Part shown: positions 27,305 through 51,048 of the stretch, one piece after another | Position numbering within the stretch: position 1 is the first letter of the stretch | Layout: every line of letters begins with the position of its first letter | Program-made: the position numbers and the translations under genes | Assembly (NCBI GenBank): GCA_020847445.1 | Contig: JADLBY010000026.1 | Coordinates: 1 to 51,127 of the forward strand | Source of the DNA: Sphingomonadaceae bacterium | Lineage (GTDB): Bacteria; Pseudomonadota; Alphaproteobacteria; Sphingomonadales; Sphingomonadaceae | DNA length: 51,127 nucleotides | Reading direction: 5' to 3' | Notes under the pieces: generated by a model | What the model was told of the DNA's origin: nothing | Database searches by the model: none | Seen by the model: the letters and a program-made list of their open reading frames with translations, nothing else

Positions 27305-27378
27305 GCGGGTATAGCATAGTGGTAATGCTCTAGCCTTCCAAGCTAGCTAGAGGGGTTCGATTCCCCTTACCCGCTCCA
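27305..27378 (+). tRNA. tRNA-Gly (TCC), prophage insertion site
   Basis: A 74-base cloverleaf: acceptor GCGGGTA / TACCCGC, D-stem GCAT/ATGC, anticodon stem CTAGC/GCTAG with loop CTTCCAA (anticodon TCC), T-stem GGGG/CCCC around TTCGATT, encoded CCA. The gene stays whole after integration; its 3' half doubles as the end of the recombinase gene on the other strand. Confidence 0.96.
27347..27378. other. Probable prophage attachment site (attL) in tRNA-Gly
   Basis: The last codons and TAG stop of the serine recombinase are the antisense of the tRNA-Gly 3' half. A phage-borne copy of the tRNA 3' end that rebuilds the tRNA on insertion would explain this. The crossover itself is not visible, and the matching attR lies beyond the window. 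Confidence 0.6.
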
Positions 27379-28966
27379 TCGCTGTAGTCCCTTTTGGGGC
27401 TGGCCGGTTTCCGGTGGCAAAGGCGAGGATATCCGCCAGTTTTCCGAAAATTTCGATGGCGAGGCCATTTTCTGCTTTTGGCTCGGGTGTGAGCGTTATG
27501 CGGTCGATCATCGATCGCAGGGCTGGCGCCGCCGTCTCGCGGCTTGCTTCGCGGTTGAATGCCTGCTGCAGGTCGGTCCAGCGGCGGCGGTAATCTTCGG
27601 CGAAATTGGGATGCAGGGCGATGACGCTTGGTTCTTCGATGTCCGCGCGGTCGACCAGCAGCTGCTCACGGCGCTGCTTCAGCGCAGTCAGGCTGTCGCG
27701 GATTTCTGCAAAGCCGGATGCGCCATTGGCAATGGCTTCGACCAGGTTGGCGATTTTCCCATCGATGCGGCCCAGCTCGGCATCGATGCGGGATCTATGC
27801 TTGGCACCATCGCGAACGATCTTTGCCTGCAGCTTGTGACGTTCGGCGACATAGAGCGCGACATGCTCCGGAAGCATCAGATGGTCTGACAAGCCAGCGA
27901 GAACCCGTTCCTCCATGCGGTCACCGCGAATGCGCAAGCGATTGTCACAGCCACCGCCATCCTTATGCCTGCCACAGCCCCAATACGTCTTGCTGACTAC
28001 GATCCACCCGCCACCGCAGGTTCCGCACCGCACAAGGCCGGAGAGCAGCCGCTTGGGCCGCATCAGATGCTCTGGCCGCTTTCCCTCCATCGCTTTGCGT
28101 CGAGCCTGCACCCTCGCCCACAGAGCGCCGTCGACGATGCGAAGGTGCGGTGCATCGTGGCGTTGCCATTCGCTTTCGGGATTTGGCTTGATCAAGGTCT
28201 TGCGGGTTTCGGGATCGCGCACCTTTGATGTGCGGTTGAAGACGATCTGGCCGATATATTGCTCATTATTGAGCATGCCATTCTTGCGCTGCCGGTCGCC
28301 ATGGATTGTCGTCATGCGCCATGCCCCGCCGGTCGGGCCGGGGATGCCATCATTGTTGAGGCCTTCGGCGATCTGCCGCGTCGATCGGCCGTCAGCAAAT
28401 TCGGTGAAGATACGGCGCACGATATCGGCCTGCACTTCGTCAACTACGCGCAAGCCGCGTACCGGCCTGCCGCGATCATCGATGCGGTTGGCAAGGGCAT
28501 AGCCATAGGCCTTGCCCGCCGGTGCGCGTCCGTCATTGACGGTACCGCGCTGGCCGCGCTTTACCTTTGCCCCCAGTTCCTTCCGGAAACGGGCATCGAA
28601 CAAGCCCTTGATTGCGCCCTTGATGTCGTCGACCTCTCCATCATTCAGGGTGAAGAGGCGCGCGCCGGTGAACTCGATACGCTCCCGAATGGCGAAGGCA
28701 TCGCCTTCATGGCGGGCAAGACGGTCTGTGGATTCGGCGAAGACCCAATCTATATCGCGGCGGGCCAATCGATCGAGCATCCCGGCAAGTCCGGGGCGCT
28801 GGTCACCATCGATACCGGCAGCGCCGCTGATCGCATAATCGGTGAAAATGCCGACTATCTGCCAGCCCTCGCGCTCCGCATGTGCGGTCAGCAGCGATAT
28901 CTGATCATCGATCGAGCGCGCGTTTTGAAGGTGGCTGCTGAACCTGGCATAGAGGACGGTACGCAT
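27347..28966 (-). CDS. Large serine recombinase (phage integrase)
   Basis: Site-specific recombinase of 539 residues. The N-terminal resolvase domain has YARFSS with the nucleophile Ser10, and DRLAR at 81-85. A recombinase domain and a zinc ribbon (Cys 314, 317, 331, 340) follow, then a coiled coil around 365-435, all typical of phage integrases of the phiC31/Bxb1 class. It presumably inserts and, with a directionality factor, excises this prophage. The last ten residues, MERVRGIEPL, are encoded by tRNA-Gly antisense. A good promoter lies about 60 bases upstream. No recombination directionality factor was recognised. Confidence 0.93.
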   Translation of the reverse strand: MRTVLYARFSSHLQNARSIDDQISLLTAHAEREGWQIVGIFTDYAISGAAGIDGDQRPGLAGMLDRLARRDIDWVFAESTDRLARHEGDAFAIRERIEFTGARLFTLNDGEVDDIKGAIKGLFDARFRKELGAKVKRGQRGTVNDGRAPAGKAYGYALANRIDDRGRPVRGLRVVDEVQADIVRRIFTEFADGRSTRQIAEGLNNDGIPGPTGGAWRMTTIHGDRQRKNGMLNNEQYIGQIVFNRTSKVRDPETRKTLIKPNPESEWQRHDAPHLRIVDGALWARVQARRKAMEGKRPEHLMRPKRLLSGLVRCGTCGGGWIVVSKTYWGCGRHKDGGGCDNRLRIRGDRMEERVLAGLSDHLMLPEHVALYVAERHKLQAKIVRDGAKHRSRIDAELGRIDGKIANLVEAIANGASGFAEIRDSLTALKQRREQLLVDRADIEEPSVIALHPNFAEDYRRRWTDLQQAFNREASRETAAPALRSMIDRITLTPEPKAENGLAIEIFGKLADILAFATGNRPAPKGTTAMERVRGIEPL

Positions 28967-32275: not shown

Positions 32276-32682
32276 GCTGCACCTGCCTTGGCAGCAGAAT
32301 ATTGCGCCTCACCCCATGCACATGCCTGGGCAATCAGCGCTTCGACATTTTCTCCGTAAAATAGCTTTGTCCGCCAATGACCCCAAGAAAATGAAACAGA
32401 GGTATCATTGATCTTTGTGAAAACAGGACAATCAGCCAGCAGCAGATAACCATGCATTCCTTTGTTGAACGCATCGCACCACAGCTCTTCCCAGTCGATC
32501 GAGTCATGATCGAAATCGTCATCATAGTTAGGAATCAGCGAGGCAATCTCTGGCGGTAGTTCAGTATACTCGATTGCATCAGTGAAAACGTCGCTGGGCC
32601 CATCACTGCAACCAAAAATCGGCCAAATGCCAGCGATGCGGATATTGGTATCAAAAATTTTTTTGGCGAGTTCCTTGCTCAT
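32272..32682 (-). CDS. Hypothetical acidic phage protein
   Basis: 136-residue protein from the ATG at 32,682, which overlaps the HD protein stop. The middle is strongly acidic (YDDDFDHDSIDWEELW near residue 52), with the aromatic segment SFSWGHWRTKLFYG later. Such acidity is seen in DNA-mimic inhibitors, but nothing specific supports this beyond composition. Confidence 0.65.
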   Translation of the reverse strand: MSKELAKKIFDTNIRIAGIWPIFGCSDGPSDVFTDAIEYTELPPEIASLIPNYDDDFDHDSIDWEELWCDAFNKGMHGYLLLADCPVFTKINDTSVSFSWGHWRTKLFYGENVEALIAQACAWGEAQYSAAKAGAA

Positions 32683-34188: not shown

Positions 34189-36932
34189 ACCATCCTCCCC
34201 GCTTTGACCGGCGCTTCGAAGACGTAGCAGCTGACCACTGCGCCGCCGGGGGTGTTGGTATCGCGGCTCGATGCGATGAATTTGCGGCTCTTGCTGTGCT
34301 TCAGCAGCTTGCGCAGTTCGCGCAGTTCGGCAGGCATCTGCAGCCGTGCATTGTTGATCCGCTGCTCATAGGCGGTCAGGCTGATTGCGATGATACCTTC
34401 ACCGGCCTTGCGGGAAAGGTTGATGCTATTGCCAGCCTCCCATTGCCCCGCATCTTCTCGCGCCAGCATATGTTCATATTTTTCCCAGAATTCGGCAACG
34501 ACCGGATGATCGCCGCCGCTGGTCTGTTGCCGCGCCAAGGCCATGCGATCGATGTGCGCAATGGTTTCCGCAAGCCATTCGGGGCGCAGCTTTTTGGGGA
34601 AGAGATGGTCGAGGGCATCGACAGTGGCCGCAAGTTGGCTGTGGTTGATGATGCAGCGGCGATTGTGGAGGCCCTTTATCCGCTCCGCCATGCCCGCCTT
34701 GTGATGCTCAAATCGTTCGAAATAATAGGGCAGGAATTTGTCTTCAGCTTTCGCCAGATGGATGATGGTGCCGCTGACGTCTTCCAGCTGGATATTGGCA
34801 ATCCGCTCCGCCGCCGCCGTTGTTGTGGGTGACCATCGTGCTTTGTCGATGGTGATGGGCATGATGCGTTCGAGTACCGCCGGCATCGCATCGATCGGCA
34901 GGTTCTGCATGAGGTAGATGGTGCCAAGGAAAGGCGGTTCATGAACCTGATTGTCGCTGGTCTTTACGGCCAGACCGCGCGGGTTGCGGCCATTGTAGAG
35001 CACCAGCAATTCATTCCAGTCGAACTGACGGCCGTGGAATCGGTTGCCGTCGCCTTCACCGCGGTTGCCTTCGATAAGGCCGGTCGGCATGCCCGACCCT
35101 TCCATGAACTTGCGGCTGATATAGCTGGCGGTGCCCTTGTTCGGGTCAAAGCCTTCATATTCGGTGCGCCCGAACAGTTTCCACAGGAACTCGATCAAGG
35201 TGGTTTTGCCGCTGCCGGGTTCGCCGGTGATTTCAAGAAAGCCGATGCTCGCCTGCCGTTTGCGGATCTGCACCGCGAAAAGAGACATGGTGAAAAAGGC
35301 GAGGCTGACCAGTCCTTCCGGCCCCCATGCCGTCCACAGGTCTTCAATCCAGTCAAAGCGCAGCTGCTCCGGATCATATTGAATATCGAGCATGCGCTGC
35401 TTCGACTGAATCTTCACCGCGCGGTTGCCGATGTCGAAATAGTCTTCGCTGTTGATCTTCAGGACGCGGCCCTGATGGACGGCGATATCGCCCAATACCC
35501 AAGCGCCGTGGCGCGGCGAATAGCCAGTGAACTTGATCGGCTCGACCGTCTTCAACTCTCGGGTCTGCGCCGTCATGATGCGGTCCAGCTGTTCGCCGGT
35601 GCCTGCCCACATGGCAGCAAAATCCATCATGCGTTTCTTGAACTCGCCGCTCGACGAACAGGCGTTCGAGGAAAAACGCGCCTTGGCGGTGGGGCGCGTT
35701 GTCGGGAAATCGACCTGCAGATAATATGCACCGCGATCTTCGACCGGATCGAACTCGTGATACAGGATGCGAAAGGCGCAGTTGGCTACAACATCGAGGT
35801 CGAATTTAGGGCTGCGGTCGCGGGGATTGTCTTCGTCGTCGGCTTCAAAGCTGACCTTGCACCACCAGGTGACATTGTTGTGCCGAAACCAGAACTGGCT
35901 CCGCCCCATCTGCCGCCGTTCATAGAGCAGCTTGGCTTTTTTGATCGGGGTCGGCGCGATGGTGACGGCACCGTTCCAAAGATAATCCTCGATCGCGGCT
36001 TCGCTCAAAGGGGCCTTGTCGCTATCACCCTTCCAGTCCCGATGACGCAGCCACAAATCGTTCCAGTCGAGCTTTCTGCCTTCGCCATCGGGGCGCACCT
36101 GCGCGGCCAGTGCTTCCCAGCCTTCGGCCTTGGCCTGCTCGACAAATTTCTTGGTATAGCGGACACCGGCTGCACCCACATCATAGGCGAATACCAGCGT
36201 CGGGCGATGCTTGGGGTTGTCACTGGCGGCGATGGCCTTGCGAAGCGCCTGAAGGAAATGTTCCGGCCAATTGTTGACCGACATGCCGCCTACCGCCGCG
36301 CGCTTTGTCTTTCGGTCCTTGAAGGCAAGGTTCAGCGCCCAGGCATCGAATATCCCTTCGGCAATCCATATCTGATCGACCGTCGCCAGATATTCGTCGC
36401 TATGATCCGGCATCCGCCAGACAAGCCCGTCGCGTGACGCGTGGTTCGGCAGTTTCTCCAAGATTTTGGGGTCGCGCCAGCGGAAGCGGGCCTTGCGGTC
36501 GAACCGACCGGGCCGATCAATAATGCGTTCCCACCAACTGTCGTTCGGCAAGGCAAAGCGAACGGTAGAGCTGGTCTGACCGGTTTTCTGATCCTTGTAG
36601 AGTTCCTGGGTGTAGGCCCCGCGCATACCCATCAGATCGAGCCCGCGTTCGTGGCTGAGATAGGCGTCAGCGGTCGCTGTCGGATTTTCGGGCGTTGCGG
36701 GGTTGGATTTTGACCAGTCCTCGAACAATTCGGGCAGCAGCGATTTTACGCTCTCGCTCCATCCGCAGCGGTCCTCCCTGCTGCATTTCACAACCTTGGG
36801 GGACGTAGCGCTGCAATAGACTTCGTTGCGGTTGCAATCGGGGCATTTGCCCTGCTGCAGCCATGCGCCCTTGACGCTTTTGAAGTTGAAACGCGCCTTC
36901 AGTTCGGAAACTATTTTCTCTTCAAATGTCAC
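34185..36932 (-). CDS. Phage primase-helicase
   Basis: Replication protein of 915 residues. The N-terminal zinc-binding domain has CPDC (30-33) and Cys50/Cys56, as in DnaG- or gp4-type primases. A toprim-like region follows, with AEGIFDAW around Glu192 and YDVGAAG around Asp251. The helicase part has Walker A GEPGSGKTT near 569-579, then a long C-terminal region. The GTG start at 36,932 overlaps the previous stop (GTGA), which is why it is preferred over the longer frame. It replaces the rolling-circle gpA system of P2. Confidence 0.88.
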   Translation of the reverse strand: MTFEEKIVSELKARFNFKSVKGAWLQQGKCPDCNRNEVYCSATSPKVVKCSREDRCGWSESVKSLLPELFEDWSKSNPATPENPTATADAYLSHERGLDLMGMRGAYTQELYKDQKTGQTSSTVRFALPNDSWWERIIDRPGRFDRKARFRWRDPKILEKLPNHASRDGLVWRMPDHSDEYLATVDQIWIAEGIFDAWALNLAFKDRKTKRAAVGGMSVNNWPEHFLQALRKAIAASDNPKHRPTLVFAYDVGAAGVRYTKKFVEQAKAEGWEALAAQVRPDGEGRKLDWNDLWLRHRDWKGDSDKAPLSEAAIEDYLWNGAVTIAPTPIKKAKLLYERRQMGRSQFWFRHNNVTWWCKVSFEADDEDNPRDRSPKFDLDVVANCAFRILYHEFDPVEDRGAYYLQVDFPTTRPTAKARFSSNACSSSGEFKKRMMDFAAMWAGTGEQLDRIMTAQTRELKTVEPIKFTGYSPRHGAWVLGDIAVHQGRVLKINSEDYFDIGNRAVKIQSKQRMLDIQYDPEQLRFDWIEDLWTAWGPEGLVSLAFFTMSLFAVQIRKRQASIGFLEITGEPGSGKTTLIEFLWKLFGRTEYEGFDPNKGTASYISRKFMEGSGMPTGLIEGNRGEGDGNRFHGRQFDWNELLVLYNGRNPRGLAVKTSDNQVHEPPFLGTIYLMQNLPIDAMPAVLERIMPITIDKARWSPTTTAAAERIANIQLEDVSGTIIHLAKAEDKFLPYYFERFEHHKAGMAERIKGLHNRRCIINHSQLAATVDALDHLFPKKLRPEWLAETIAHIDRMALARQQTSGGDHPVVAEFWEKYEHMLAREDAGQWEAGNSINLSRKAGEGIIAISLTAYEQRINNARLQMPAELRELRKLLKHSKSRKFIASSRDTNTPGGAVVSCYVFEAPVKAGRMV

Positions 36933-37345
36933 GCTGCTTCGCCCTCCGCATGGGCGATCGCGCTGTCGATTGTCGCTGATGCTATGCCGACCGCTCTGCA
37001 GCGATCGATGAAGGTCTTGCGATCCATACCGGGTGCGATGCACCCGCGCCCCAACCAGTAAGTCAAAACCCGCCGAACAAATGTACGGTCATCGCCGCTG
37101 GGTTGTACCGTGACTGTCGAAACGGTCACTTCCTTCGGTTTTACTGGCGGAGTCCCTATGTTGCGAAGCCGGTTGTTCAGCATCAGTATGTGCGTGACGT
37201 GCGGGATGCTCATTCCTTCGGCATCGGCAATTTCCTTCGCCTTCACGCCATCGTCATAGGCGGCGCATATCCGTTGATCGCGGCTCATCCGGTTCTTTCC
37301 ACGAACCTTGGCCTGTGGCGCCGGGGCTATTGCGGTGGCTGACAT
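36929..37345 (-). CDS. HTH-type phage protein upstream of the primase
   Basis: 138-residue protein from the ATG at 37,345, with GGAG seven bases before. A helix-turn-helix-like segment, KAKEIADAEGMSIPHVTHIL, lies around residues 34-53. Position directly before the primase-helicase, with overlapping stop and start, suggests a replication accessory or origin-binding role, but this is inference. Earlier in-frame starts exist but lack ribosome sites. Confidence 0.7.
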   Translation of the reverse strand: MSATAIAPAPQAKVRGKNRMSRDQRICAAYDDGVKAKEIADAEGMSIPHVTHILMLNNRLRNIGTPPVKPKEVTVSTVTVQPSGDDRTFVRRVLTYWLGRGCIAPGMDRKTFIDRCRAVGIASATIDSAIAHAEGEAA

Positions 37346-37445
37346 GACTCTCCTGTTCGCCGGAATCGGCGTTTGATCTGGGTTGACCTTTCGGTCGTCT
37401 TCGGCTCGGGGCGTTGGATTGTTCGGGGGTCGGGGCTGGCGGGTG

Positions 37446-37823
37446 CTAGCTGGTGTCTTGACCCGAATTGGCTTCGAACATGCTGACCTGCCGGTCATCG
37501 GGCTTTGCGTCCGATGATGGCGGGTAAATCTGCGGGATACGGTCGCGCGGGCACAGCGGCAGGTCCATCTCCGGCGTGTAGTGCAGCCCGGGATTGAGCA
37601 GATAGACCAGGCTCACCTGCATGATGCACGATGCGTTGCATCCGGGATTGCTGCACTGGCAGGTCAGCTGCTTGACCTGCGATGTTTGACGCTGGCTGTC
37701 GCGGATCGTCATCGGCGCTTCGCAACAGGGGCAGATCAGGAAGGCGCGGCTCTTGCTGCGCGAGCCACCGGGGCGAATCTGGCTGCGCAGCGGCGCTTCG
37801 ATCAGGGCGTAATCCTGCGTCAT
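37446..37823 (-). CDS. ogr: Ogr/Delta-like zinc-finger activator
   Basis: 125-residue protein with the P2 Ogr signature: CPCCEAPM, then CQCSNPGCNASC about 22 residues later, giving Cys ligands in the characteristic CxxC-x22-CxxxxC arrangement, followed by hydrophobic VSLVYLLNPG. Ogr proteins contact RNA polymerase alpha and switch on late genes of P2-like phages. Here the gene lies in the early operon after cro, not next to gene D as in P2, so late activation is placed under the lytic promoter. Confidence 0.88.
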   Translation of the reverse strand: MTQDYALIEAPLRSQIRPGGSRSKSRAFLICPCCEAPMTIRDSQRQTSQVKQLTCQCSNPGCNASCIMQVSLVYLLNPGLHYTPEMDLPLCPRDRIPQIYPPSSDAKPDDRQVSMFEANSGQDTS

Positions 37824-37824
37824 A

Positions 37825-38205
37825 TCAGCGCCCCTGTTCCATTATGGCACGAAACAGCTTCCACCGCCGGTAACCCCGGCCAGCAGGGGTGCGGTTAACC
37901 ATTTTTCGGGCGGGTGAAAAAAAAGAGGAGGCGATAAGCAGCATCGATGCGCGCATCCGTGCCCATATCGATTCGACCCGCTGGTTACGCTGCCTGCGCA
38001 GAAAGGCAGGCGGCGAAAAAGGCACGGGTGCGCGATAGGGCGCACACCCGTGCAAGTGGGTCGTTTCGCTTTGCAGACTGCGCGTTGCTTGGGGAGCATG
38101 CGCTTCCCCCGCCGAACGTGGATTTCGTTCGCGCGGCAGGGTTTGGTGGGCCTGCAAGCCACCAAATCGGTTCACCATGCGGTAATAGGATGCAGCGCGG
38201 GCCAT
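37825..38205 (-). CDS. Possible coding frame between cro and ogr
   Basis: 126 codons. The start overlaps the cro stop (TGATG) and the stop is one base before the ogr start, which is what a real gene in this operon would show. The product is basic and unrecognised. Against this, the stretch holds an intrinsic terminator and further hairpins, and open frames exist in other phases, so it may be a non-coding regulatory region read through. Both readings are left open. Confidence 0.45.
   Translation of the reverse strand: MARAASYYRMVNRFGGLQAHQTLPRERNPRSAGEAHAPQATRSLQSETTHLHGCAPYRAPVPFSPPAFLRRQRNQRVESIWARMRASMLLIASSFFSPARKMVNRTPAGRGYRRWKLFRAIMEQGR
38016..38053 (-). terminator. Intrinsic terminator downstream of cro
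   Basis: Read on the minus strand: stem with arms GCACGGGTG and CACCCGTGC, extended by three more pairs around a bulge, loop of about six bases, then five T. It lies about 150 bases after the cro stop, inside the possible frame above, similar in place to tR1 after lambda cro. Confidence 0.7.
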
Positions 38206-38507
38206 CAGCCGGCACTCCGGCGCGGTTCGCGGTCGACGCCATGAAAACGCAAATCGCTGCACTGATCGACTATGGTTTCGCGGCCATCGATCGGGCGCGG
38301 ATAGATGTCGGGGCGCAGGTCGTGGCGCGAAACGCCGTAGAGGGCTTCAACTGTCAACACATACACTGCGGGCAACTGCTTGGACTGGTTGAGCCAGCCC
38401 CAAACTGTTGGTTGCGAGACGCCAAGATCGCGAGCGAATTGCGACTGCGATTTCGCACAATCGACCGCCGCTTTAAGTGCTTCGAACCGGGTCAACTTCG
38501 TTTCCAT
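38205..38507 (-). CDS. Cro-like (YdaS-type) repressor
   Basis: 100-residue DNA-binding protein. The helix-turn-helix is visible in QSQFARDLGVSQPTVWGWLN near residues 21-40, followed by the LPAVYVLTVEALYGVSRHDLRPDIYP region common to YdaS/Cro proteins. It is divergent from the larger repressor and starts the early operon from the promoter at 38,517-38,544. It likely counteracts the repressor in the lytic choice. Confidence 0.88.
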   Translation of the reverse strand: METKLTRFEALKAAVDCAKSQSQFARDLGVSQPTVWGWLNQSKQLPAVYVLTVEALYGVSRHDLRPDIYPRPIDGRETIVDQCSDLRFHGVDREPRRSAG

Positions 38508-38576: not shown

Positions 38577-38584
38577 CCTATAGG
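38577..38584. promoter_or_regulatory. Second operator, touching the repressor start
   Basis: Palindrome CCTATAGG, the same core as the first operator without the spacer. It adjoins a GTG start of the repressor gene, so binding could limit the repressor's own expression. Confidence 0.5.
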
Positions 38585-39252
38585 TGTTCGAGGTGATCAT
38601 ACCTGAACGACTCGACGAACGATTGGAGGCTGCAGGTCTCACGCAAAGCGAACTAGCGCGGCGCGTTGGTGTAACTCAGCCAACTATTGCAGGGCTGAAA
38701 TCTGGTCGCTCGCAAGGTTCCAAGTATATAGACCGCATTGCGCGAGAACTGGGAACGACAGCAGCCTATCTTACCGGTGAGACCGACGATCCGGCTAAAG
38801 GCGCTGTTCCGGTGCCATCAGCTGATGTGCTGTCCGATCGGCTTGATCTGGTGGGGCTGCGTGAAATCGATTTGACGCTGGGGATGGGGGCTACCTATCT
38901 TGACGTACCGGTGACCACTGCGATCCGCTATTTCTCGCGCGACTGGCTGCGCGCCTATACCAAGGCTGATCCGGATCATCTGTTTTTCGCCCAGGGAATT
39001 GGCGATTCTCAGTCGCCAACGATCCTAGACAGCGATCTCTTGCTGATCGATGTTTCGCAAAACCATCTTAACCTACACGATAAATTCTGGGCTGTTGCCT
39101 ATGGCCAGATGGGCGCAGTGCGGCGGCTGCGCGGCAAACCTGATGGCTCGATCGAGATGTTGTGCGATAACCCGCTGGTGCGCGATGATGTTGCCTATGA
39201 TGGCGAGCTGCATGTCATCGGGCGCGTGGTCGCGATCGTCAGAAAGTTGTGA
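38584..39252 (+). CDS. Prophage repressor (XRE HTH plus S24-like domain)
   Basis: 222-residue CI-type repressor. HTH near residues 20-42 (TQSELARRVGVTQPTIAGLK). The C-terminal half has the LexA/S24 fold: GDSQSPTILDSDLLLID holds the Ser nucleophile near residue 141, and the segment that usually reads V-K-R-L is AVRRL here, so the general-base Lys is Arg. GTG at 38,584 or 38,593; the second has a slightly better upstream context. Possible -10 TATGAT near 38,553. It keeps the lysogenic state by binding the operators between itself and cro. Confidence 0.88.
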   Translation: MFEVIIPERLDERLEAAGLTQSELARRVGVTQPTIAGLKSGRSQGSKYIDRIARELGTTAAYLTGETDDPAKGAVPVPSADVLSDRLDLVGLREIDLTLGMGATYLDVPVTTAIRYFSRDWLRAYTKADPDHLFFAQGIGDSQSPTILDSDLLLIDVSQNHLNLHDKFWAVAYGQMGAVRRLRGKPDGSIEMLCDNPLVRDDVAYDGELHVIGRVVAIVRKL

Positions 39253-39262
39253 GGAGAGTTTG

Positions 39263-39685
39263 GTGTCAGACGATGTAAAAGCAAAATCGAAAAACCAAGC
39301 AATAGGCTGCGCAGTTCTCTTAGGCTTGGTTTTGTTCATTTCTTTGGTCATTGCCTTAGGAAACGGGGATAATTCAGGCAGCGATATTAAGTTTCGTCAA
39401 ATGCCCGGCGTGGCTAACTATGCGATGATCGTGCCGGTGGGCGCTAACGCCGACGATCTTGTTACGGCAGCAAAAGACCAGTGCGGTGAACAAGAGATTT
39501 GTCGTGTATTGGGATGGCAAAATGAAGCCGATATGGCGCGCGCTTTTCCAATGACGGACAATGAGGTCGGCAGCCTTGTCTTCAATTATGGTATTAACCG
39601 CACAACCGGTTACGAGCAGGCGCTGTGGAACTGCAAAATATTCGTTACCAAAAAAGGTGACGAGTGCCTTTCATTTGATCCTTAA
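39263..39685 (+). CDS. Membrane-anchored protein co-expressed with the repressor
   Basis: 140-residue protein from a GTG with GAGGAG seven bases before. Residues 13-32 form one membrane helix; the remainder, with four Cys and GGDNSG-like polar segments, would lie outside the cytoplasm. No known family. It begins ten bases after the repressor stop, so it is made in the lysogen: a lysogenic conversion or superinfection-exclusion protein is a reasonable but unproven guess. Its stop overlaps the stop of gene D by four bases (convergent). Confidence 0.72.
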   Translation: MSDDVKAKSKNQAIGCAVLLGLVLFISLVIALGNGDNSGSDIKFRQMPGVANYAMIVPVGANADDLVTAAKDQCGEQEICRVLGWQNEADMARAFPMTDNEVGSLVFNYGINRTTGYEQALWNCKIFVTKKGDECLSFDP

Positions 39686-40680
39686 CCCGCGCTCTCCATC
39701 TTCAGGCTTTGGGTCAGGCCGCCACTTCCCATCTTGGTACTGACTTCCTCGATCAACCAGGTGGCGCCATCGATCGTGCTGCTCCACCCGCTTAAGGTCG
39801 CTTTGGCGTTGGGTACGATGCTGCAATCGGCGATGGCCAGATCATAGCTGAAGGTGCGCGGGGCGCGTTTGGTGCGCTTGGCCTCGGCCTCTGCCGCCTC
39901 TTTCGCTTCGGCCTCACTGCCATAGACCTTTTTCAGGCGTTTCCGCTTTTCCCCGCCGGTCTTCACGGTGCGGCGGCGCGCGCCATCCTGATCATGCCAC
40001 TGCGCCTCTGCCCCGTCATGGTCGCCGCGCTGGGCGTAATTGTGGCTCCATTTCCAGCCATCCTGCTTGGTCAGCTTCACCGCCGGTATCGGTTGCCCGC
40101 CGGGTGTCACCGCTGCACCAATCGGCATGAAAATCAGGGCCTTGTCCTTCACCGTTGCCACAGCGTCGTAACGCTGGCCTAGATCGCGGACAAAGGCGAC
40201 ATCGCTTTTCTGGGTCTGCTCGATCGCTCTGATCGCCTTGCCTGCCAGCCCCCCATCGATATGCGCGCGCCATCCATTGTCACTGGCGATCTGGTTCAGG
40301 ATCGCGCCCAGCGTGGTGTCTTTCCAGCTGCGCGCCTTGCGCTTGCGGGCATCGCCGGTCAGGTCGGCCGATCGGGCGCGGATGGTGATGATATCGGGCG
40401 GGCCTTCCTCGCTGACCTCATCGACCTTGAACCGGCCCTTGTCGATCAGACCAACCTTCACCCCGTCCCCCTGCAGCCACCCCAGCGCCAGCGACAGATA
40501 AACCCCCGGCTGCGGTGCCTGCAATTTGCCGTCATGATTGTGCAGCGTGATGTCCAGCTGATCGGCTTCCTGTCCGCGCTTTTCGGTCAGCGTCAGATCC
40601 AGAAAGCGCGGGTTGACCTTATCCGCCAGATCGGTGCCGTCTTCCAGCGACAGGCGAATTGCGGCTTTGTTGGCGGTCAT
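39682..40680 (-). CDS. D: Tail protein D (late control protein family)
   Basis: 332-residue homologue of P2 gpD, a baseplate hub protein related to T4 gp27. Recognition rests on PRFLDLTLTEKRGQEADQLD near residue 24, WKDTTLGAILNQIA near 117 and the VAFVRDLGQRYDA segment near 160, plus position at the end of the tail operon. The C-terminal part has a Lys/Ala/Glu-rich stretch. It overlaps U by one base. Confidence 0.9.
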   Translation of the reverse strand: MTANKAAIRLSLEDGTDLADKVNPRFLDLTLTEKRGQEADQLDITLHNHDGKLQAPQPGVYLSLALGWLQGDGVKVGLIDKGRFKVDEVSEEGPPDIITIRARSADLTGDARKRKARSWKDTTLGAILNQIASDNGWRAHIDGGLAGKAIRAIEQTQKSDVAFVRDLGQRYDAVATVKDKALIFMPIGAAVTPGGQPIPAVKLTKQDGWKWSHNYAQRGDHDGAEAQWHDQDGARRRTVKTGGEKRKRLKKVYGSEAEAKEAAEAEAKRTKRAPRTFSYDLAIADCSIVPNAKATLSGWSSTIDGATWLIEEVSTKMGSGGLTQSLKMESAG

Positions 40681-45218: not shown

Positions 45219-45593
45219 TCAGGCTCCTGTGGTAGTAGCGCCACCGGCGCGGATGGGGATGGAAAGGGAAACGCGGTTGTTGGGCGAGGGCAGGTCGGTC
45301 CGCTCGCCTTCGATCTGGATCTGCAAACGGCCCTCTGCATCGCCATTTGACAGGGCAATGCGGGTGATACGGATGCGGCGTTCCCACGCCTTCAGCGCAA
45401 GGGCGGTGGCAGCAAAGACCAGCGCGCGGGTGATGGCGTTCAGGGGCTGGTCGATCAGATCAAACAGCATCGATCCATAATCGCGGCGCATCACGCGGGT
45501 GCCGATGGGTGTGGTCAGGATATCGCCTATCGACTGCGCAAGATGCGCATTGCCGGTCAGGGCTGTGCCCGAATTTCGGTTGATACCGATCAT
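45219..45593 (-). CDS. W: Baseplate protein W (gp25-like)
   Basis: 124-residue baseplate wedge protein of the GPW/gp25 family. The signature is near residues 26-40: LTTPIGTRVMRRDYGS, then LFDLIDQP. It is the first gene of the W-FI-FII-E-T-U-D run, with a 70-base gap before it that holds the dyad at 45,641-45,659. In P2, W sits next to V and before J. Confidence 0.92.
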   Translation of the reverse strand: MIGINRNSGTALTGNAHLAQSIGDILTTPIGTRVMRRDYGSMLFDLIDQPLNAITRALVFAATALALKAWERRIRITRIALSNGDAEGRLQIQIEGERTDLPSPNNRVSLSIPIRAGGATTTGA

Positions 45594-45640: not shown

Positions 45641-45659
45641 AGTAATGGCAGCCGTTACT
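45641..45659 (-). promoter_or_regulatory. Dyad upstream of W, candidate late activator site
   Basis: Near-palindrome AGTAATGGCAGCCGTTACT, its edge 48 bases before the W ATG. A copy with two differences lies 47 bases before the J ATG. No consensus -35 is near; AATTAA about 20 bases further may be a -10. Fits an Ogr-type activator site, though it is not the P2 consensus. Confidence 0.6.
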
Positions 45660-45663
45660 CTGT

Positions 45664-46236
45664 TTATTGTGGCGTGCCAGATACCCCGCCACCGGCCTGC
45701 ACGCCGGTATGCTTATGGCTCTTCAGGCTCTTGCCGCCACCGATCACATCCTCGGTCGCGGTTGCGGTTCCGCTGATATCGACATTGCCATTGATCGTCA
45801 CATCGGCCTCGATCGTCAATCCGCCCGGCGCGGTGATCTTTGCGGTGGCGTTTCCGGAAAGGTTGATTTCAAAAGCGTGCGCCTGGGCATCATAATCGAG
45901 TCGGCTGCCATCCCCGAACTCGATCCGGTCGATCGCGCTGTTGCCGACCGGGGGGAATGCATCGCAAACAATGCCGGGCATGAATATCGCATTGGCCAAC
46001 TCACCGTCCCGCTTGATCAAGATACCCTGTTCGCCGACGCTGGGGGCAGACCAGATACGGGTCTGGCCCGCGCGAAACGCGCACCAGCGGATAGGCGGGG
46101 TTTCGGCATCATCCTCATCCGGATCACCGATCCGCACCACACAGCGCGCTTCTGCCAGATCGACCGACACGACGACGCCGAAATCGATCATCGCGCCGGG
46201 GTCAAGCGGGATGTCTTCCATGTTCATTCTGGCCAT
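45664..46236 (-). CDS. V: Baseplate spike protein V
   Basis: 190-residue spike protein of the P2 gpV family: an OB-like domain at the N-terminus (FGVVVSVDLAEARCVVRIGD), then the GEQGILI segment and a C-terminal beta-helix region with TIEADVTINGNVDISGTAT. The C-terminus has HKHTGV, a histidine pair typical of the iron-binding spike tip. The ATG at 46,236 has AGGTG just before. Placed after the fibre genes instead of before J. Confidence 0.9.
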   Translation of the reverse strand: MARMNMEDIPLDPGAMIDFGVVVSVDLAEARCVVRIGDPDEDDAETPPIRWCAFRAGQTRIWSAPSVGEQGILIKRDGELANAIFMPGIVCDAFPPVGNSAIDRIEFGDGSRLDYDAQAHAFEINLSGNATAKITAPGGLTIEADVTINGNVDISGTATATEDVIGGGKSLKSHKHTGVQAGGGVSGTPQ

Positions 46237-46246
46237 CACCTGTTGA

Positions 46247-47950
46247 CTAGGGTTCGATTTTCCACTCGATCTGCAAATGGCGCAGCAGGATATCGACGGT
46301 GCCATTCGATCCCTTGAGACGCACGAAGAAGTGCTTCATCCCCGCCATCGCGCCATCGACCGGGATCCAACCGCTTTTGAAAAATGCATAATTGCCGCCA
46401 TTGTTCGTGACCGTCAGATCATTGCCTGCAGCGCTGACAGGCGCGCCAGCGCCAGTCTCAACCTCATCCAGCTGCATCGTAACCGTCTGCCCGTTTTCCG
46501 TCGCATAGCCGCGTGCAACGAGCCTGAAATGCGTCGCTGGGAACCTGTCAAAGTCAAGCGATGTGACCAGACTTTGCACCGGAATATAATTAACGCTGTT
46601 CACGTCGATCGTCGCGTCGCCGGGGCGAATGGTAGTAATTAGATACGGCATCATCGCTGCTTTTGGCACGGTCACATCACCGAATTTGAACTCGATCACA
46701 TTAACGTCGCCGAAAACAACCTGATTGTTCTTTGTGGTATAGGTGTTCGGGCCAATAGCCGTACTGTTGACTGCATCCACCTTTTGGTTGCCATGCTGGC
46801 CGCTGGCGAAGCCCAGAAACAGGTTGCGGCTGCCTGTTGTGATCGAACCACCCGCACCATAGCCAAGCCCCGTATTTTCCGCGCCGGTTGCGCCGGATAG
46901 TGCAAAGGCACCAACTGCTACCGCGTCGCTGCCCGAATAGACATCACCTGCCAGATAACCAACATTGACATTCCGGTGGCCAGCAGTCGCCGAAAATCCG
47001 GCTTTATAGCCGATATTGACGTTATAATCGCCGTTCGTCTTGGTGCGGCCAGCAGCATAGCCTACCTCGGTATTGCCGTCGCCGCTGATATTATTGTGCG
47101 ATGTTGTATATCCGATTGCGACATTTTCGTTACCATCGGTCAGATCGTGTAGCGTACTGTCGCCAACACCCGTATTGCCGGTGCCGGTAGTCGAGCTGCG
47201 AAGCGACCAATGGCCGACCGCGACAAGGCCCAAACCAGCAGTCGCCACCTTCAACGCTTCATTGCCTACAGCAACACTGTCAATCACCGAATCGGCCTCG
47301 CGCAATGCGTAAGCGCCGATGGCTACCACGTTACCTGGCGTCGCTGCATTGCGCAGCGCATGATGGCCTATCCCTATATTCTGGTCGCCGGAAACCAGAC
47401 CAAGCATGGCCTCTTCACCCATCGCCACAATGGCATTGGATGTGTGAGTGATATTGCCAGCGTTACCAAAGAAATAGGCATATTGTGCTGCTTTGCCCTT
47501 CGCCAGCGACGTTCCGAACATCCTGAAATCAGCAATATCCGCATCGCCAATGACCACGGTATTGCTGGCCGGAACCACGACATTCTTGCCGATACCGATT
47601 GCGTTGGAGACGTCGACAGGCTGCGCGCCAGCGCCCGCTCCATAGCCGAGGAAGATGTTGTAGCTGCCAGTTGCGATGGCGGCACCTGCATAGCCGCCAA
47701 TGCCGATATTCCTGATGCCTGCGGACAGGTTTCCGAAAAGCGCATAGTCGCCAATGGCAACGGCTTCACCGCCTCCATAAGCGCCAAGCGTCGCATATCC
47801 GATCGCAACGCCGACCGAATCGATGGCGCGTATCCGGTACCGCGCCACAAACTGATGTCCGCTTGCGCGCTTTGTGCCGACACCCTGAACGACCGCAAGG
47901 TGATCGACATCTTGGCCATCATTGAACGGCGGAAGGTCATTGATTTTCAC
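46247..47950 (-). CDS. Tail fibre with YadA-like head repeats
   Basis: 567-residue fibre protein starting at GTG 47,950, just after the assembly-protein stop. From about residue 45 to 420 it is made of degenerate 14-16-residue repeats with the core [N/A]xAIGxxA (for example NIGIGHHAL, NVAIGYTTS, NVNIGYKAG), the pattern of the beta-roll head of trimeric autotransporter adhesins. The C-terminal 150 residues are a different, probably receptor-binding, domain. A trimeric fibre is inferred from the repeat type. Confidence 0.85.
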   Translation of the reverse strand: MKINDLPPFNDGQDVDHLAVVQGVGTKRASGHQFVARYRIRAIDSVGVAIGYATLGAYGGGEAVAIGDYALFGNLSAGIRNIGIGGYAGAAIATGSYNIFLGYGAGAGAQPVDVSNAIGIGKNVVVPASNTVVIGDADIADFRMFGTSLAKGKAAQYAYFFGNAGNITHTSNAIVAMGEEAMLGLVSGDQNIGIGHHALRNAATPGNVVAIGAYALREADSVIDSVAVGNEALKVATAGLGLVAVGHWSLRSSTTGTGNTGVGDSTLHDLTDGNENVAIGYTTSHNNISGDGNTEVGYAAGRTKTNGDYNVNIGYKAGFSATAGHRNVNVGYLAGDVYSGSDAVAVGAFALSGATGAENTGLGYGAGGSITTGSRNLFLGFASGQHGNQKVDAVNSTAIGPNTYTTKNNQVVFGDVNVIEFKFGDVTVPKAAMMPYLITTIRPGDATIDVNSVNYIPVQSLVTSLDFDRFPATHFRLVARGYATENGQTVTMQLDEVETGAGAPVSAAGNDLTVTNNGGNYAFFKSGWIPVDGAMAGMKHFFVRLKGSNGTVDILLRHLQIEWKIEP

Positions 47951-47954
47951 GTCT

Positions 47955-48395
47955 TCAAGCTTTCTTTTCCGGCCAAAGCGGGTGGGTGGCGACAGGGAAG
48001 GCTTCGGGATCGTCACTGGCCAGCATGTCCTGTTCAATCAGGTTGCTGGCTACGCGAATGGCATCGATCGATGCAAAGTCCGCGCAGGTTTCGATGCTGT
48101 CGTCGCCCGCGCGCAAGGCATTCAGCTGCCTATGCAGCGGCATGATCGCATCTATCCGGCGTGCCGCCTCTGCCTTGATAGCGAACATGGCATCACGGCG
48201 CTTTTCGGAAAGGCCATAGCTGCGCCAGCGCGGCTTGCCATCCGGCCCGGTTTCGATTTCGCGCTGGGGCTGGTCAGGAGGAAACAGGGCCTCATGCTCT
48301 GCCGCAGTCACCAGAACAGCATCTTTTGGCTTTCCCTTGCCTTTACGGTTGGTCGGATAAAAACCGCAGGTAGATGGCGAGTACCAATAGCTCAT
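47955..48395 (-). CDS. Tail fibre assembly protein (G-like)
   Basis: 146-residue protein with an N-terminal YWYSPSTCGFYP segment and a helical middle (RRIDAIMPLHRQLNALRAG), features shared by small phage fibre-assembly proteins. It sits between the H-type fibre and the repeat-rich fibre and is three bases from H. Chaperone function is inferred from position and general pattern. Confidence 0.7.
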   Translation of the reverse strand: MSYWYSPSTCGFYPTNRKGKGKPKDAVLVTAAEHEALFPPDQPQREIETGPDGKPRWRSYGLSEKRRDAMFAIKAEAARRIDAIMPLHRQLNALRAGDDSIETCADFASIDAIRVASNLIEQDMLASDDPEAFPVATHPLWPEKKA

Positions 48396-48398
48396 GGG

Positions 48399-49430
48399 TC
48401 AGCTCCCGATTGCGATATAGTTGCCGGTCATCGCCCCATGGCCGTTGAACGCGGTAAAGCCGCTGGCGCTTTGTGAACCGGCAATGGCGTGGACATAATT
48501 GTCCTGGTCGGCTGCATCGCTGGCGCTGCCCTGCGCCAAAGCGACAAAGCACTGGCCGCCGGAAAAGGCGACGGGGAAGGTGACGGCCATCGTGGTATTG
48601 GCACCAATGCTGAAGCTGCCCCACTTGACCTCGAATCCGAAAAGCCGGAACCGGCCATTTGCGCCAAACAGCCGCACCAGACCCAGCAAGGCGGGCACCA
48701 GCGCCTTGGTTGTATTCGCGGTTTCCAGATCGGCTTCCAGCGCTGCTGTAACCGTGATGACGCGGTTGGCAGAAAGGTCTCCGCCGCCGGTGGCCATGCC
48801 GCCGCCGGTAATAGTGCGCCCGGTCAAGGTCGCAAGTCCAGCGAGCAGGGCGTCAAGCGAAGCCGTGATCGGTGCCAGAAAAGCAGTCAGCCGTGCGCGC
48901 AATGTCTTTGCGGTCACCGTTTCGCGATAATCATCCGGGCCGTCTACGGCAGCATCAACCTCGGCTTGGGTGGCGAAACGCGATATACCCTGAACCGTTT
49001 CGGACGCGGGCGGGTAGAGGAAAAGCGCGCTGCCAAAGTCGATGAAGGCAGCGGCATTGTCGGTGAAGGCAACATCGATCGAGATCAGGCCGAATGCCAG
49101 TTCCGCCTTGGTCAAAACAGGGTCTGTCGGATGGCTGTACACTGCAAACAGTGTGCCATCGTCAAGGAACAGGCCAAAACCGGTAAGATCATAGGTGTCG
49201 GCGCTGGTATCATAGGCGGTGACATGGATCACATTGGGGGCGACTTCCTGCCCGCTGACGCCGACCAGCGCCTTGAACTGACCCGGCAGGGCTGTCAGCG
49301 TCGGGGCCATGACGAACGGGGTGTCGGTCAGCCCCAGCGTCGCAATCTGAATCGGATCGGTTGCCGCCGTTTCTGCCGCGACCAGCGCGTCCAGACCGGC
49401 ATCGGTGATCATCATCTGCAATACAGGCAT
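48399..49430 (-). CDS. H: Tail fibre protein (H-like)
   Basis: 343-residue fibre protein. The N-terminal 150 residues, starting MPVLQMMITDAGLDAL, match the collar region of P2 H-type fibres (QMAITDAG family), with YPPASETVQGISRFAT near 134. The C-terminal 90 residues resemble the gp53-like fibre tip with FTAFNGHG and GNYIAIGS. Shorter than P2 H. Next to I and the assembly protein. Confidence 0.85.
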   Translation of the reverse strand: MPVLQMMITDAGLDALVAAETAATDPIQIATLGLTDTPFVMAPTLTALPGQFKALVGVSGQEVAPNVIHVTAYDTSADTYDLTGFGLFLDDGTLFAVYSHPTDPVLTKAELAFGLISIDVAFTDNAAAFIDFGSALFLYPPASETVQGISRFATQAEVDAAVDGPDDYRETVTAKTLRARLTAFLAPITASLDALLAGLATLTGRTITGGGMATGGGDLSANRVITVTAALEADLETANTTKALVPALLGLVRLFGANGRFRLFGFEVKWGSFSIGANTTMAVTFPVAFSGGQCFVALAQGSASDAADQDNYVHAIAGSQSASGFTAFNGHGAMTGNYIAIGS

Positions 49431-49433
49431 AAC

Positions 49434-50084
49434 CTAAACCTCCAGAAACTGACCGACTCCGGTCTCGAATGGTTCGCCATCCTCGGTTAAAAGGTAGGTG
49501 CCCCAGCGCGGGTCAGGATCATGCGTCGCCAGCGTGTCGAACCGGCCATAGGTTGCCGTCATTGCCCCGCCATCGAGCCAGAGGAACGCCTGCGCCTCGA
49601 GTGACTGGACGAAATCGAAATGGCGGCTGACCGGCTTTACCGATGCAACATCGCGGATGATCGAGGCGGCGGTTTCGGCCGTCAAAAAACTGGCCGGAAT
49701 GTCCGGGGCAGGGGCGCGAACCTCGAATGTGCCGGGGGTGCCGCGCGGGTTGGTTTCCCACCATTCGACCACGGTCAGCAGCGGGTGAAAACGCGCCAGC
49801 ACTTCCTCTACTATGCCGCGCGTCCCCTTGCGCTTGTGAAAGGAGATGGCATTGGCGGTCTCGGTGCGCTTTTGCGCCAGCGTCCAATTTTCATCCCATC
49901 GCGAAATGGCAAGACCCCATGCGAGAAAGGGCAGCACTTCAGGCGGGCAAGACAGCGGGTTCCACAGGCTGCCCACCATTCCGATATCCGCACCCACGCG
50001 CATGGCATCTTCCAGCGCGCGCTCGGCATCGGTGGCGTTGGGCGGCAACAGCGACTTCGCCAGAACATCGGGGGGCAGGCTCAT
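49434..50084 (-). CDS. I: Tail protein I
   Basis: 216-residue baseplate protein of the P2 gpI family. The segment LPPNATDAERALEDAM followed by LWNPLSCPPEVLPFLAWGLAIS is characteristic, as is RKGTRGIVEEVL. Its ATG overlaps the J stop (TGATG) and the H start follows four bases after its stop. Confidence 0.92.
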   Translation of the reverse strand: MSLPPDVLAKSLLPPNATDAERALEDAMRVGADIGMVGSLWNPLSCPPEVLPFLAWGLAISRWDENWTLAQKRTETANAISFHKRKGTRGIVEEVLARFHPLLTVVEWWETNPRGTPGTFEVRAPAPDIPASFLTAETAASIIRDVASVKPVSRHFDFVQSLEAQAFLWLDGGAMTATYGRFDTLATHDPDPRWGTYLLTEDGEPFETGVGQFLEV

Positions 50085-50983
50085 CAGTCTGCAATCCCTG
50101 CATCGTTGATCGTGATGGTCAGCGGATATCCAGCCTGCATCGCCGTCAAAACCACATCGGCGGCAGGGCTGGGAAGCTCAACCCGCTGGATGCCGCCAAC
50201 GTGCAGGGCGGCGATCAGGGCAGAGCGGGGGACATCACGACCAAGACGGCGCGCCGATTCCAGATAGGCGTTCAGGCTGGCCTCCGCTGTATCGAGCAGA
50301 AGCTGGGGGTCTGGCCCTGCATAACGGTAAAGATTGGCGACAATGTCATAATTGATGATCTCGGCGGATTGGACGGTGACCAGATCGGTCATCGGGCGGA
50401 CATCATCATCCAGTGCTGCGGTAACAGCTGCCAGCGTGGCGGGCGGGGCAGTGCCGTCGCCGGTCCGCGAAAGCACCGATACGACGACTTCGGTGGGCGC
50501 AGGCGATACCGCACTTGCATCCAGCACATCGGGGTTGGCGTTGCGGGCAAAGCCGACATAGGCACGTTCGGGGCCTGCGACAGAATAGGTGTGCGGGGCC
50601 AGCAAGGTCCGTTCGCGCAGATCGGCATCACTTTCCATGACTGCCGGTGCGCCGGTCAACGGATTGGCCGGGGTGATTTCCTGCCGTGTCAGGCCATAAA
50701 GTGCCGCCAGATTGTCCAGATTGCTCCCGCGCGCATAAGCGAGCAGGTTTTGTGTTGCCCCTTCAACAAAGGCCTGCACCAGCGCCATTTCGTCATAGGA
50801 GTCTGCCTCGATCAATTTGAAGGCGGGATCGCTTTCAACCAGTGCCGTGAATTCCGGCACCAGCTCGATCAGCCGCGCCAGCTTTGCATCGAAACGCGTC
50901 TCGAAATCAGGCTGGTCGATGATCTGCGGCGGCGGCAGCCGCGACAGGTCGATGGCGGGGGAGGTTGCGATCGATGAAACCAT
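50084..50983 (-). CDS. J: Baseplate assembly protein J
   Basis: 299-residue P2 gpJ homologue, baseplate wedge. Family segments: LSRLPPPQIIDQPDFE at the N-terminus, SNLDNLAALYGLTR near 92, and the ERAYVGFARNANPDVLDA stretch near 145. The ATG at 50,983 is preferred to 51,022 because the dyad lies a fixed distance upstream and a leader is needed. First gene of the J-I-H-fibre-V run. Confidence 0.92.
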   Translation of the reverse strand: MVSSIATSPAIDLSRLPPPQIIDQPDFETRFDAKLARLIELVPEFTALVESDPAFKLIEADSYDEMALVQAFVEGATQNLLAYARGSNLDNLAALYGLTRQEITPANPLTGAPAVMESDADLRERTLLAPHTYSVAGPERAYVGFARNANPDVLDASAVSPAPTEVVVSVLSRTGDGTAPPATLAAVTAALDDDVRPMTDLVTVQSAEIINYDIVANLYRYAGPDPQLLLDTAEASLNAYLESARRLGRDVPRSALIAALHVGGIQRVELPSPAADVVLTAMQAGYPLTITINDAGIAD

Positions 50984-51029
50984 GCCCCGCCTTTGCGCGC
51001 CAAGGGCGCGCCGGGGTAGCATCGGCGGC

Positions 51030-51048
51030 AGTAATGGCCGCTGTTACT
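51030..51048 (-). promoter_or_regulatory. Dyad upstream of J, candidate late activator site
   Basis: AGTAATGGCCGCTGTTACT, matching the W dyad at 17 of 19 positions and placed 47 bases before the J start. The flanks differ, so the similarity is in the dyad itself. Candidate binding site for the Ogr-like protein. Confidence 0.6.

Follow-up and report, generated by a model that had tools for sequence, protein, structure and literature searches.

Putative Ogr-type late-activator sites of non-P2 spelling in a P2-like prophage of a Sphingomonadaceae bacterium

Two nearly identical dyads stand before the first genes of the two tail operons of a prophage in a Sphingomonadaceae bacterium (GenBank assembly GCA_020847445.1), and the same phage carries an Ogr-like gene. 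This raises the question of whether the dyads are sites of a late-promoter activator and, if so, whether that activator recognizes something other than the P2 Ogr site. The window, meaning the whole stretch of DNA that was analysed, covers positions 1 to 51,127 (51,127 nucleotides) of contig JADLBY010000026.1, and the features that bear on the question are the following:

37446–37823, minus strand: ogr-like gene, 125 aa, putative late activator (PF04606, E = 6.2e-10, 39.3 bits; phrog_603, E = 1.7e-18)
39682–40680, minus strand: gene D, end of the W operon (PF05954, phrog_52)
45219–45593, minus strand: gene W, baseplate wedge, opening the second tail operon (PF04965, phrog_43; predicted leaderless start at 45593)
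45641–45659, minus strand: dyad AGTAACGGCTGCCATTACT, putative Ogr-like operator before W (exact match; dyad centre to W ATG, 57 nt)
45664–46305, minus strand: gene V, baseplate spike, final gene before the W dyad (PF04717, PF18946)
50084–50983, minus strand: gene J, baseplate, opening the first tail operon (PF04865, phrog_4226; predicted leaderless start at 50983)
51030–51048, minus strand: dyad AGTAACAGCGGCCATTACT, putative Ogr-like operator before J (exact match; dyad centre to J ATG at 50983, 56 nt)

With P2-type tail genes (J, I, V, W, and D) and a capsid gene, the element is a P2-like (Peduoviridae-type) prophage. It is spread over three contigs: C26 (the window), with the tail and early genes; C46, with capsid gene N (L112), recognized by PF05125; and C171, with O and P (L034, L035), which have matches in relatives. 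Here the J operon ends with V, and therefore the second tail operon begins with W, which agrees with the sequence-only reading of W and J as the first genes of two tail operons; in most relatives, the site stands before V instead of W. Between H and V, a 596-aa protein (46247–48037, minus strand) contains numerous short repeats rich in glycine and is possibly a fibre protein. Further away, at 27347–28966 (minus strand), there is a gene that we take to be a serine recombinase, adjoining genes that presumably form a cytochrome bc1 operon, and it likely marks the prophage edge.

The Ogr-like gene is the sole PF04606 gene of the genome, and its presence in the same phage, asserted from the sequence alone, holds up. 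Both the profile score (39.3 bits against a cut-off of 26.3) and the zinc motif CX2CX22CX4C, counted in the translation, place the protein in the Ogr/Delta family, the motif being the one that the available text of PMC3931495 gives for Ogr/Delta late activators. Residues 11 to 13 of the finger are R-D-S. The gene neighbours repressor and Cro-like genes and not the 3′ side of D as in P2: it lies behind a YdaS/Cro-like gene (38205–38507) in the region 36929–38507 of the minus strand, beside an S24 repressor gene (38584–39252). It looks like part of an early operon, unlike P2 ogr, which follows D. A search of solved-structure sequences with this protein alone gave no relative (best E = 0.5), and a degenerate peptide scan of the genome contigs and viral contigs confirmed none; a single-sequence structure model (mean pLDDT 51.5) was set aside.

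The window contains two exact AGTAA-N9-TTACT dyads, at 45641–45659 (AGTAATGGCAGCCGTTACT) and 51030–51048 (AGTAATGGCCGCTGTTACT), with 17 of 19 bases equal as originally described, and these remain the only matches when up to one mismatch is allowed (0.05 expected from 100 shuffles). The W dyad is found directly behind the V stop codon. The late genes of the prophage lie on the minus strand, and the W start at 45593 is 48 nt below the dyad edge, as claimed; that it is a leaderless start is predicted from the spacing. The 47 nt given for J hold with the ATG at 50983 and fail with the longer open reading frame, which begins at 51022. We prefer 50983, chosen by homology and spacing, because the J alignments of the closest relatives begin at residue 15–16 of the long frame.

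A whole-genome search returned three exact copies of AGTAA-N9-TTACT and seven of the same pattern read backwards. The third copy (G000:C171:1057-1075) is located in the divergent gap between the capsid genes O (minus strand) and P (plus strand), which in P2 is the place of the activator site common to pO and pP; the proposed check for a dyad before capsid genes therefore succeeds within the same genome. All three copies fit a tightened pattern, AGTAAYRRYNRYYRTTACT, a 19-bp dyad of the form AGT-N13-ACT, which was matched in only one of 296 family genomes (the present one) and there at its three sites alone, while the reversed control gave single matches in 10 of the 296, the present genome included. 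The dyad pattern is not rare by count; its matches are all at late-operon starts. On contig C46, which holds the major capsid gene, there was no copy with fewer than two arm mismatches. The outer triplets are AGT/ACT in every copy rather than TGT/ACA of the P2 type, and they are 13 rather than 12 bases apart, which bears out the claim that the site differs from the P2 Ogr consensus TGT-N12-ACA (as given in PMC3931495); N13 is also the most frequent triplet spacing in the family prophages. The dyad centres lie 57 nt from the first codon of W, 56 nt from J, 59 nt from P, and 71 or 104 nt from O, so that the W, J, and P copies stand at late-operon starts at the distance of P2 V (57 nt).

To place the prophage among its relatives, PF04606 matches were collected from 31 of 298 genomes of the family, and a larger draw gave 40 of 397. 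Beyond the family, a class draw gave 10 of 385 (just three above the cut-off) and a phylum draw 30 of 349, both of these draws including the present genome. DNA was examined around 31 of the 35 first-draw matches (four sub-cut-off ones left out), around all 10 new matches of the larger draw, and around 21 outside the family. A first pass covered 17 family prophages in which both O and P are present. The dyad seeded from the O/P gap recurred before J and V/W in 12 of them and before J alone in 4, two of the latter with an extra copy between W and FI; no recurring dyad was seen in G115a. In a second pass, with no assumed sequence, 22 of the 30 family prophages with enough sequence outscored all 30 shuffles. 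A directed look at the eight lower-scoring ones found dyads in G193b, G193a, G984, G1023, G115a, and G008a and none in G124 and G125, where an Ogr gene and tail genes are present. One prophage, G262, has a fourth dyad copy at 32671 of its region, besides those at O/P, J, and V. The sequence-only reading had proposed a search for its dyad before late operons of close relatives. Taken literally, that dyad is absent from the sampled family (the tightened pattern occurs in 0 of 295 other genomes), but at these places the relatives carry dyads of their own.

The spelling of the dyad is common within a prophage and different between prophages. TTGT-N13-ACAA is the most frequent type in the family prophages, and other spellings are CCTCGTT (G115b, G193b), CCTCCTT (G234), a looser CTC type (G984), CGTCGG (G043), TTTGGA (G1035), and TTGGGA (G008a). 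Outside the family, second-pass scores of 10 regions were left out, as the P2 gene order makes the J and W3 windows overlap. A scan of 16 such regions for TGT-N11..14-ACA gave sites that were kept in G885, G947, G695, G938, and G721, only single or scattered matches, which were left out, in G439, G537, G874, and G717, and none in G831, G746, G823, G936, G760, G923, and G967. The sites of G1023, G115a, G885, G947, G695, G938, and G721 were found by searching TGT and that of G984 by searching the CGT class. By eye, the O/P gaps of G936 (L200), G760 (L204), G923 (L205), and G967 (L211) contain an ATTCGGA-type dyad, as does that of phage K139 (L223, position 15489) by pattern match. The fingers of these five are (R/Q/K/G)-K-(T/S), making them a candidate for a further Ogr dialect. 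Dyads in viral contigs (23 stretches, one each) were attributed to chance, as tblastn showed that none encodes relatives of 13 prophage proteins. As a satellite test, the second Ogr element of G008 was searched for the dyads of the first, and none was found.

If the dyads are Ogr sites, their spelling should be related to the protein. Distances between sites, between Ogr fingers, and between three structural proteins (D, U, and FII, the backbone) were compared in 29 prophages. Site distance followed finger distance when the backbone was removed (partial Mantel r = 0.381, p = 0.0002) and did not follow the backbone when the finger was removed (r = 0.039, p = 0.33). For the inner dyad positions alone, this was reversed (finger, r = 0.109, p = 0.065; backbone, r = 0.259, p = 0.0002). 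When D, U, FII, W, and J were set against Ogr together in 28 prophages, Ogr alone kept a partial correlation, and among 21 prophages with sites found without an assumed sequence, the correlation was r = 0.558 (p = 0.0002). This set of 21 leaves out the eight directed-search prophages and the near-duplicates G281 and G193a, plus G225 and G193b, the last two not being among the 29. These comparisons suggest that dyad spelling tends to follow the Ogr finger beyond general relatedness. Together with the third copy in the O/P gap, the tracking of the finger and not of the structural proteins lends support to the late-activator reading first put forward from the sequence.

Within the finger, with columns counted from the first cysteine, the triad 11–13 was noticed by eye before the columns were scanned. 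Columns 11 and 13 ranked first for the outer triplet in the full set and in every subset, column 12 being weaker; without the HGx clade, column 11 had p = 0.084. Over all ten site positions in the set of 21, columns 13, 14, and 16 led and column 11 was fourth (p = 0.07). Among 33 finger-site pairs, which include two near-duplicates, all 25 of the TGT class (seven of them with sites found by searching TGT) have R-[T/S/K/H/Y/N]-S at columns 11–13, and seven of the eight non-TGT pairs do not, the exception being G008a with R-T-S. The tree of D, U, and FII shows four changes between TGT and non-TGT; therefore, the effective sample is small. A strict residue-to-base code was rejected: G008a has R-T-S with TTGGGA, K139-type fingers also break it, and the Microcystis phage Mae-JY29 and the present prophage, both R-D-S, have different sites.

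The distance from the dyad to the gene is more uniform than its spelling. Of 79 J, V, W, and P genes (a count that includes directed-search sites and near-duplicate prophages), 73 have an in-frame ATG 56–60 nt from the dyad centre, and every other 5-nt bin listed holds at most five of the 79. Six genes depart from this, namely G1032 J, G1035 V, G001 P, G043 J, G043 W, and G1023 J, and in three of them (G1032 J, G1035 V, and G043 J) a GTG stands at the expected distance. O has this spacing in only 1 of 25 cases and is mostly 84–112 nt from the dyad centre. No enrichment of Shine-Dalgarno sequences was found upstream of J, V, and W (1 of 52 reached five or more of the six matches, against a shuffle mean of 2.0). 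A weak TATAAT-like rise is present 14–12 nt upstream of the ATG, with no clear −10 box. The annotation of P2 (NC_001895) places the V-operon start at 10308, on the first base of V, and by our count the P2 dyad TTGTCTGGTAGTTCTACAA is centred 57 nt upstream of the V ATG, while the annotated starts of P, O, and F fall 23–40 nt before their genes. Because the 57-nt spacing of P2 puts the annotated V-operon start on the ATG, we predict that W, J, and P are leaderless here, like P2 V, and that in relatives this would mostly apply to V, J, and P. Among the phage records compared, a leaderless-type start is annotated for P2 V alone.

The system resembles that of P2 in protein family, in sites at late-operon starts, in the dyad of the O/P gap, and in the 57 nt to the V ATG, and differs in the location of ogr (after D in P2, in the early region here) and in the sites, which in P2 are of the TGT...ACA type with another spacing, in contrast to AGT-N13-ACT. 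Other named phages, a set not used in forming these rules, agree with them for the most part. The closest Ogr protein among phage records is that of Mae-JY29 (PP438421; 38.9% over 93 residues), which likewise has R-D-S and has dyads at O/P, J, and V with spacings of 56 nt (J), 57 nt (V), and 59 nt (an ATG of P); its dyad, however, is CCGT-N13-ACGG and stands before V, whereas that of the present prophage has AGTAA arms and stands before W. In its record, P is annotated from a GTG at 41 nt, and one further dyad match is present at 1315. In a Zymomonas element, whose finger reads L-S-S, the three exact copies of CCCAT-N11-ATGGG are found at O/P, V, and J, with 57 nt to J and to V and 56 nt to P. 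KS5 (R-T-S) has TTGT-N13-ACAA exactly three times, with V and P at 56 nt by our count and FI at 78 nt, and Dobby (R-S-S) has TTGT-N13-ACA three times, with V at 57 nt by our count and the annotated P start at 36 nt. The single dyad of K139 (Q-K-T), of the TTCGGA type, is in the O/P gap and lies 67.5 nt from P. In the record of Smp131 (R-T-S), the published site coordinates show no TGT-N12-ACA, and the spacing to the annotated starts is other than 57 nt. The spacing and the link between R-x-S and TGT hold in most, not all, named phages.

The available text of PMC3931495 describes four Smp131 promoters, with a layout (P, O, J, and V) like the one found here, and that of PMC5694545 gives the motif TGTTGT-(X)13-ACAACA for phiRSY1; this motif has the 13-base spacing of the present dyads, but the sites of phiRSY1/phiRSA1 and of Smp131 are of the TGT...ACA type. 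Motifs at four late promoters are described for these phages. In the text of these two sources that was available, no link between the site and finger residues was found, and the available part of PMC3091744 names Ogr genes of Burkholderia phages without sites. Among the literature matches listed, which are titles and abstracts with few subscription papers, none concerns non-TGT Ogr sites or leaderless P2-like late operons. As far as this search reaches, Ogr operators that are diverse and tied to the finger are undescribed. The suggestion of an undescribed specificity agrees with the search, though the present site is one among several non-TGT types and no lone oddity.

Other explanations of the dyads have to be weighed against these data. 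That they mark operon ends as terminators of transcription or RNA hairpins is scarcely credible. The W dyad does follow the V stop directly, and a terminator scan flags the dyads on the plus strand among its five matches; however, 5.2 matches are expected from shuffles, the flagged strand is opposite to the operons, and the spacing is fixed to the start codon downstream. The terminator reading was rejected on two grounds, the third copy lying in a divergent gap where nothing ends and the terminator-like matches being at shuffle level. Control of the late operons by another regulator, such as the phage repressor, the Cro-like protein, or a host factor, seems to us quite improbable. In its favour, repressor and Cro-like genes are present in the prophage, the prophages were chosen for having Ogr, and the covariation analysis covered Ogr and structural proteins. 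In contrast, all three exact copies are at late operons and none near the repressor region, the spelling follows the finger and not the five structural proteins, and the placement agrees with the annotated activator sites of P2.

A further reading accepts the dyads as Ogr sites and regards the link between residues 11–13 and spelling as mostly a clade effect, with other parts of the protein setting specificity. We consider this rather unlikely, though clearly less so than the two readings above. The four changes on the backbone tree speak for it, as do the R-T-S finger with TTGGGA in G008a, R-D-S paired with CCGT in Mae-JY29 and with AGT here, the (R/Q/K/G)-K-(T/S) fingers with TTCGGA-type dyads (by eye, and K139), and the lead of columns 13, 14, and 16 over column 11 in the ten-position scan of 21 prophages. 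Against it, columns 13 and 11 rank above all others for the outer triplet in every subset tried, though column 11 has a p value above 0.05 when the HGx clade is removed, and the 33 pairs divide by R-[T/S/K/H/Y/N]-S.

We regard it as very probable that the dyads serve the prophage's own Ogr-like protein as late-activator sites and that its specificity is unlike that of P2 Ogr. With high confidence, we propose that this protein switches on the late operons of the P2-like prophage and that the messages of W, J, and P have no leader or almost none. In this model, (i) the Ogr-like protein would be made on induction from the leftward early region; (ii) it would bind the 19-bp AGT-N13-ACT dyad centred 56–59 nt upstream of where the W, J, and P coding sequences begin, with O served, like P, by the O/P-gap copy; (iii) transcription from the activated promoters would begin on the ATG or only a few bases from it, giving leaderless or nearly leaderless W, J, and P messages and an O message with a leader; and (iv) the difference from P2 Ogr (TGT...ACA) would reside at least partly in finger residues 11–13 (R-D-S) and their neighbours. 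Whereas the sites, their places, the spacing rule, and the covariation with the finger come directly from computation, we infer binding, activation, start points, and the reading of bases by residues. The model is supported because the three exact copies are all at late-operon starts in a genome with one PF04606 gene, because relatives repeat dyads at the same places with a spelling that follows the finger given the backbone, because the ATG spacing is kept in 73 of 79 genes and P2 V has the same 57 nt with its start on the ATG, and because Mae-JY29, with R-D-S, has three dyads at the same spacings. It is weakened because G124 and G125 are without a dyad, Smp131 and K139 do not fit, a clear −10 box is lacking, and the inner dyad positions follow the backbone more than the finger.

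A wider reading, which we hold tentatively and at somewhat less than even chances, is that Ogr operators form dialects set mainly by residues 11–13, placed about 57 nt from leaderless messages and diversified against cross-activation by co-resident prophages. Two P2-like prophages with dyads of the TGT and CGT types are found in each of G115 (L063/L064, L087/L088) and G193 (L040, L085/L086), and G1035 has two Ogr genes that differ at residues 11–13, while in G008 and G109, the other two family genomes with two Ogr genes, the pair is alike. The 33 natural finger-site pairs, together with those of the named phages, make the recognition rules of the Ogr/Delta family directly testable. In addition, leaderless late operons are to be expected in many P2-like phages from the near-fixed distance between dyad and ATG, which also offers a motif-free means of locating late promoters and gene starts in such prophages.
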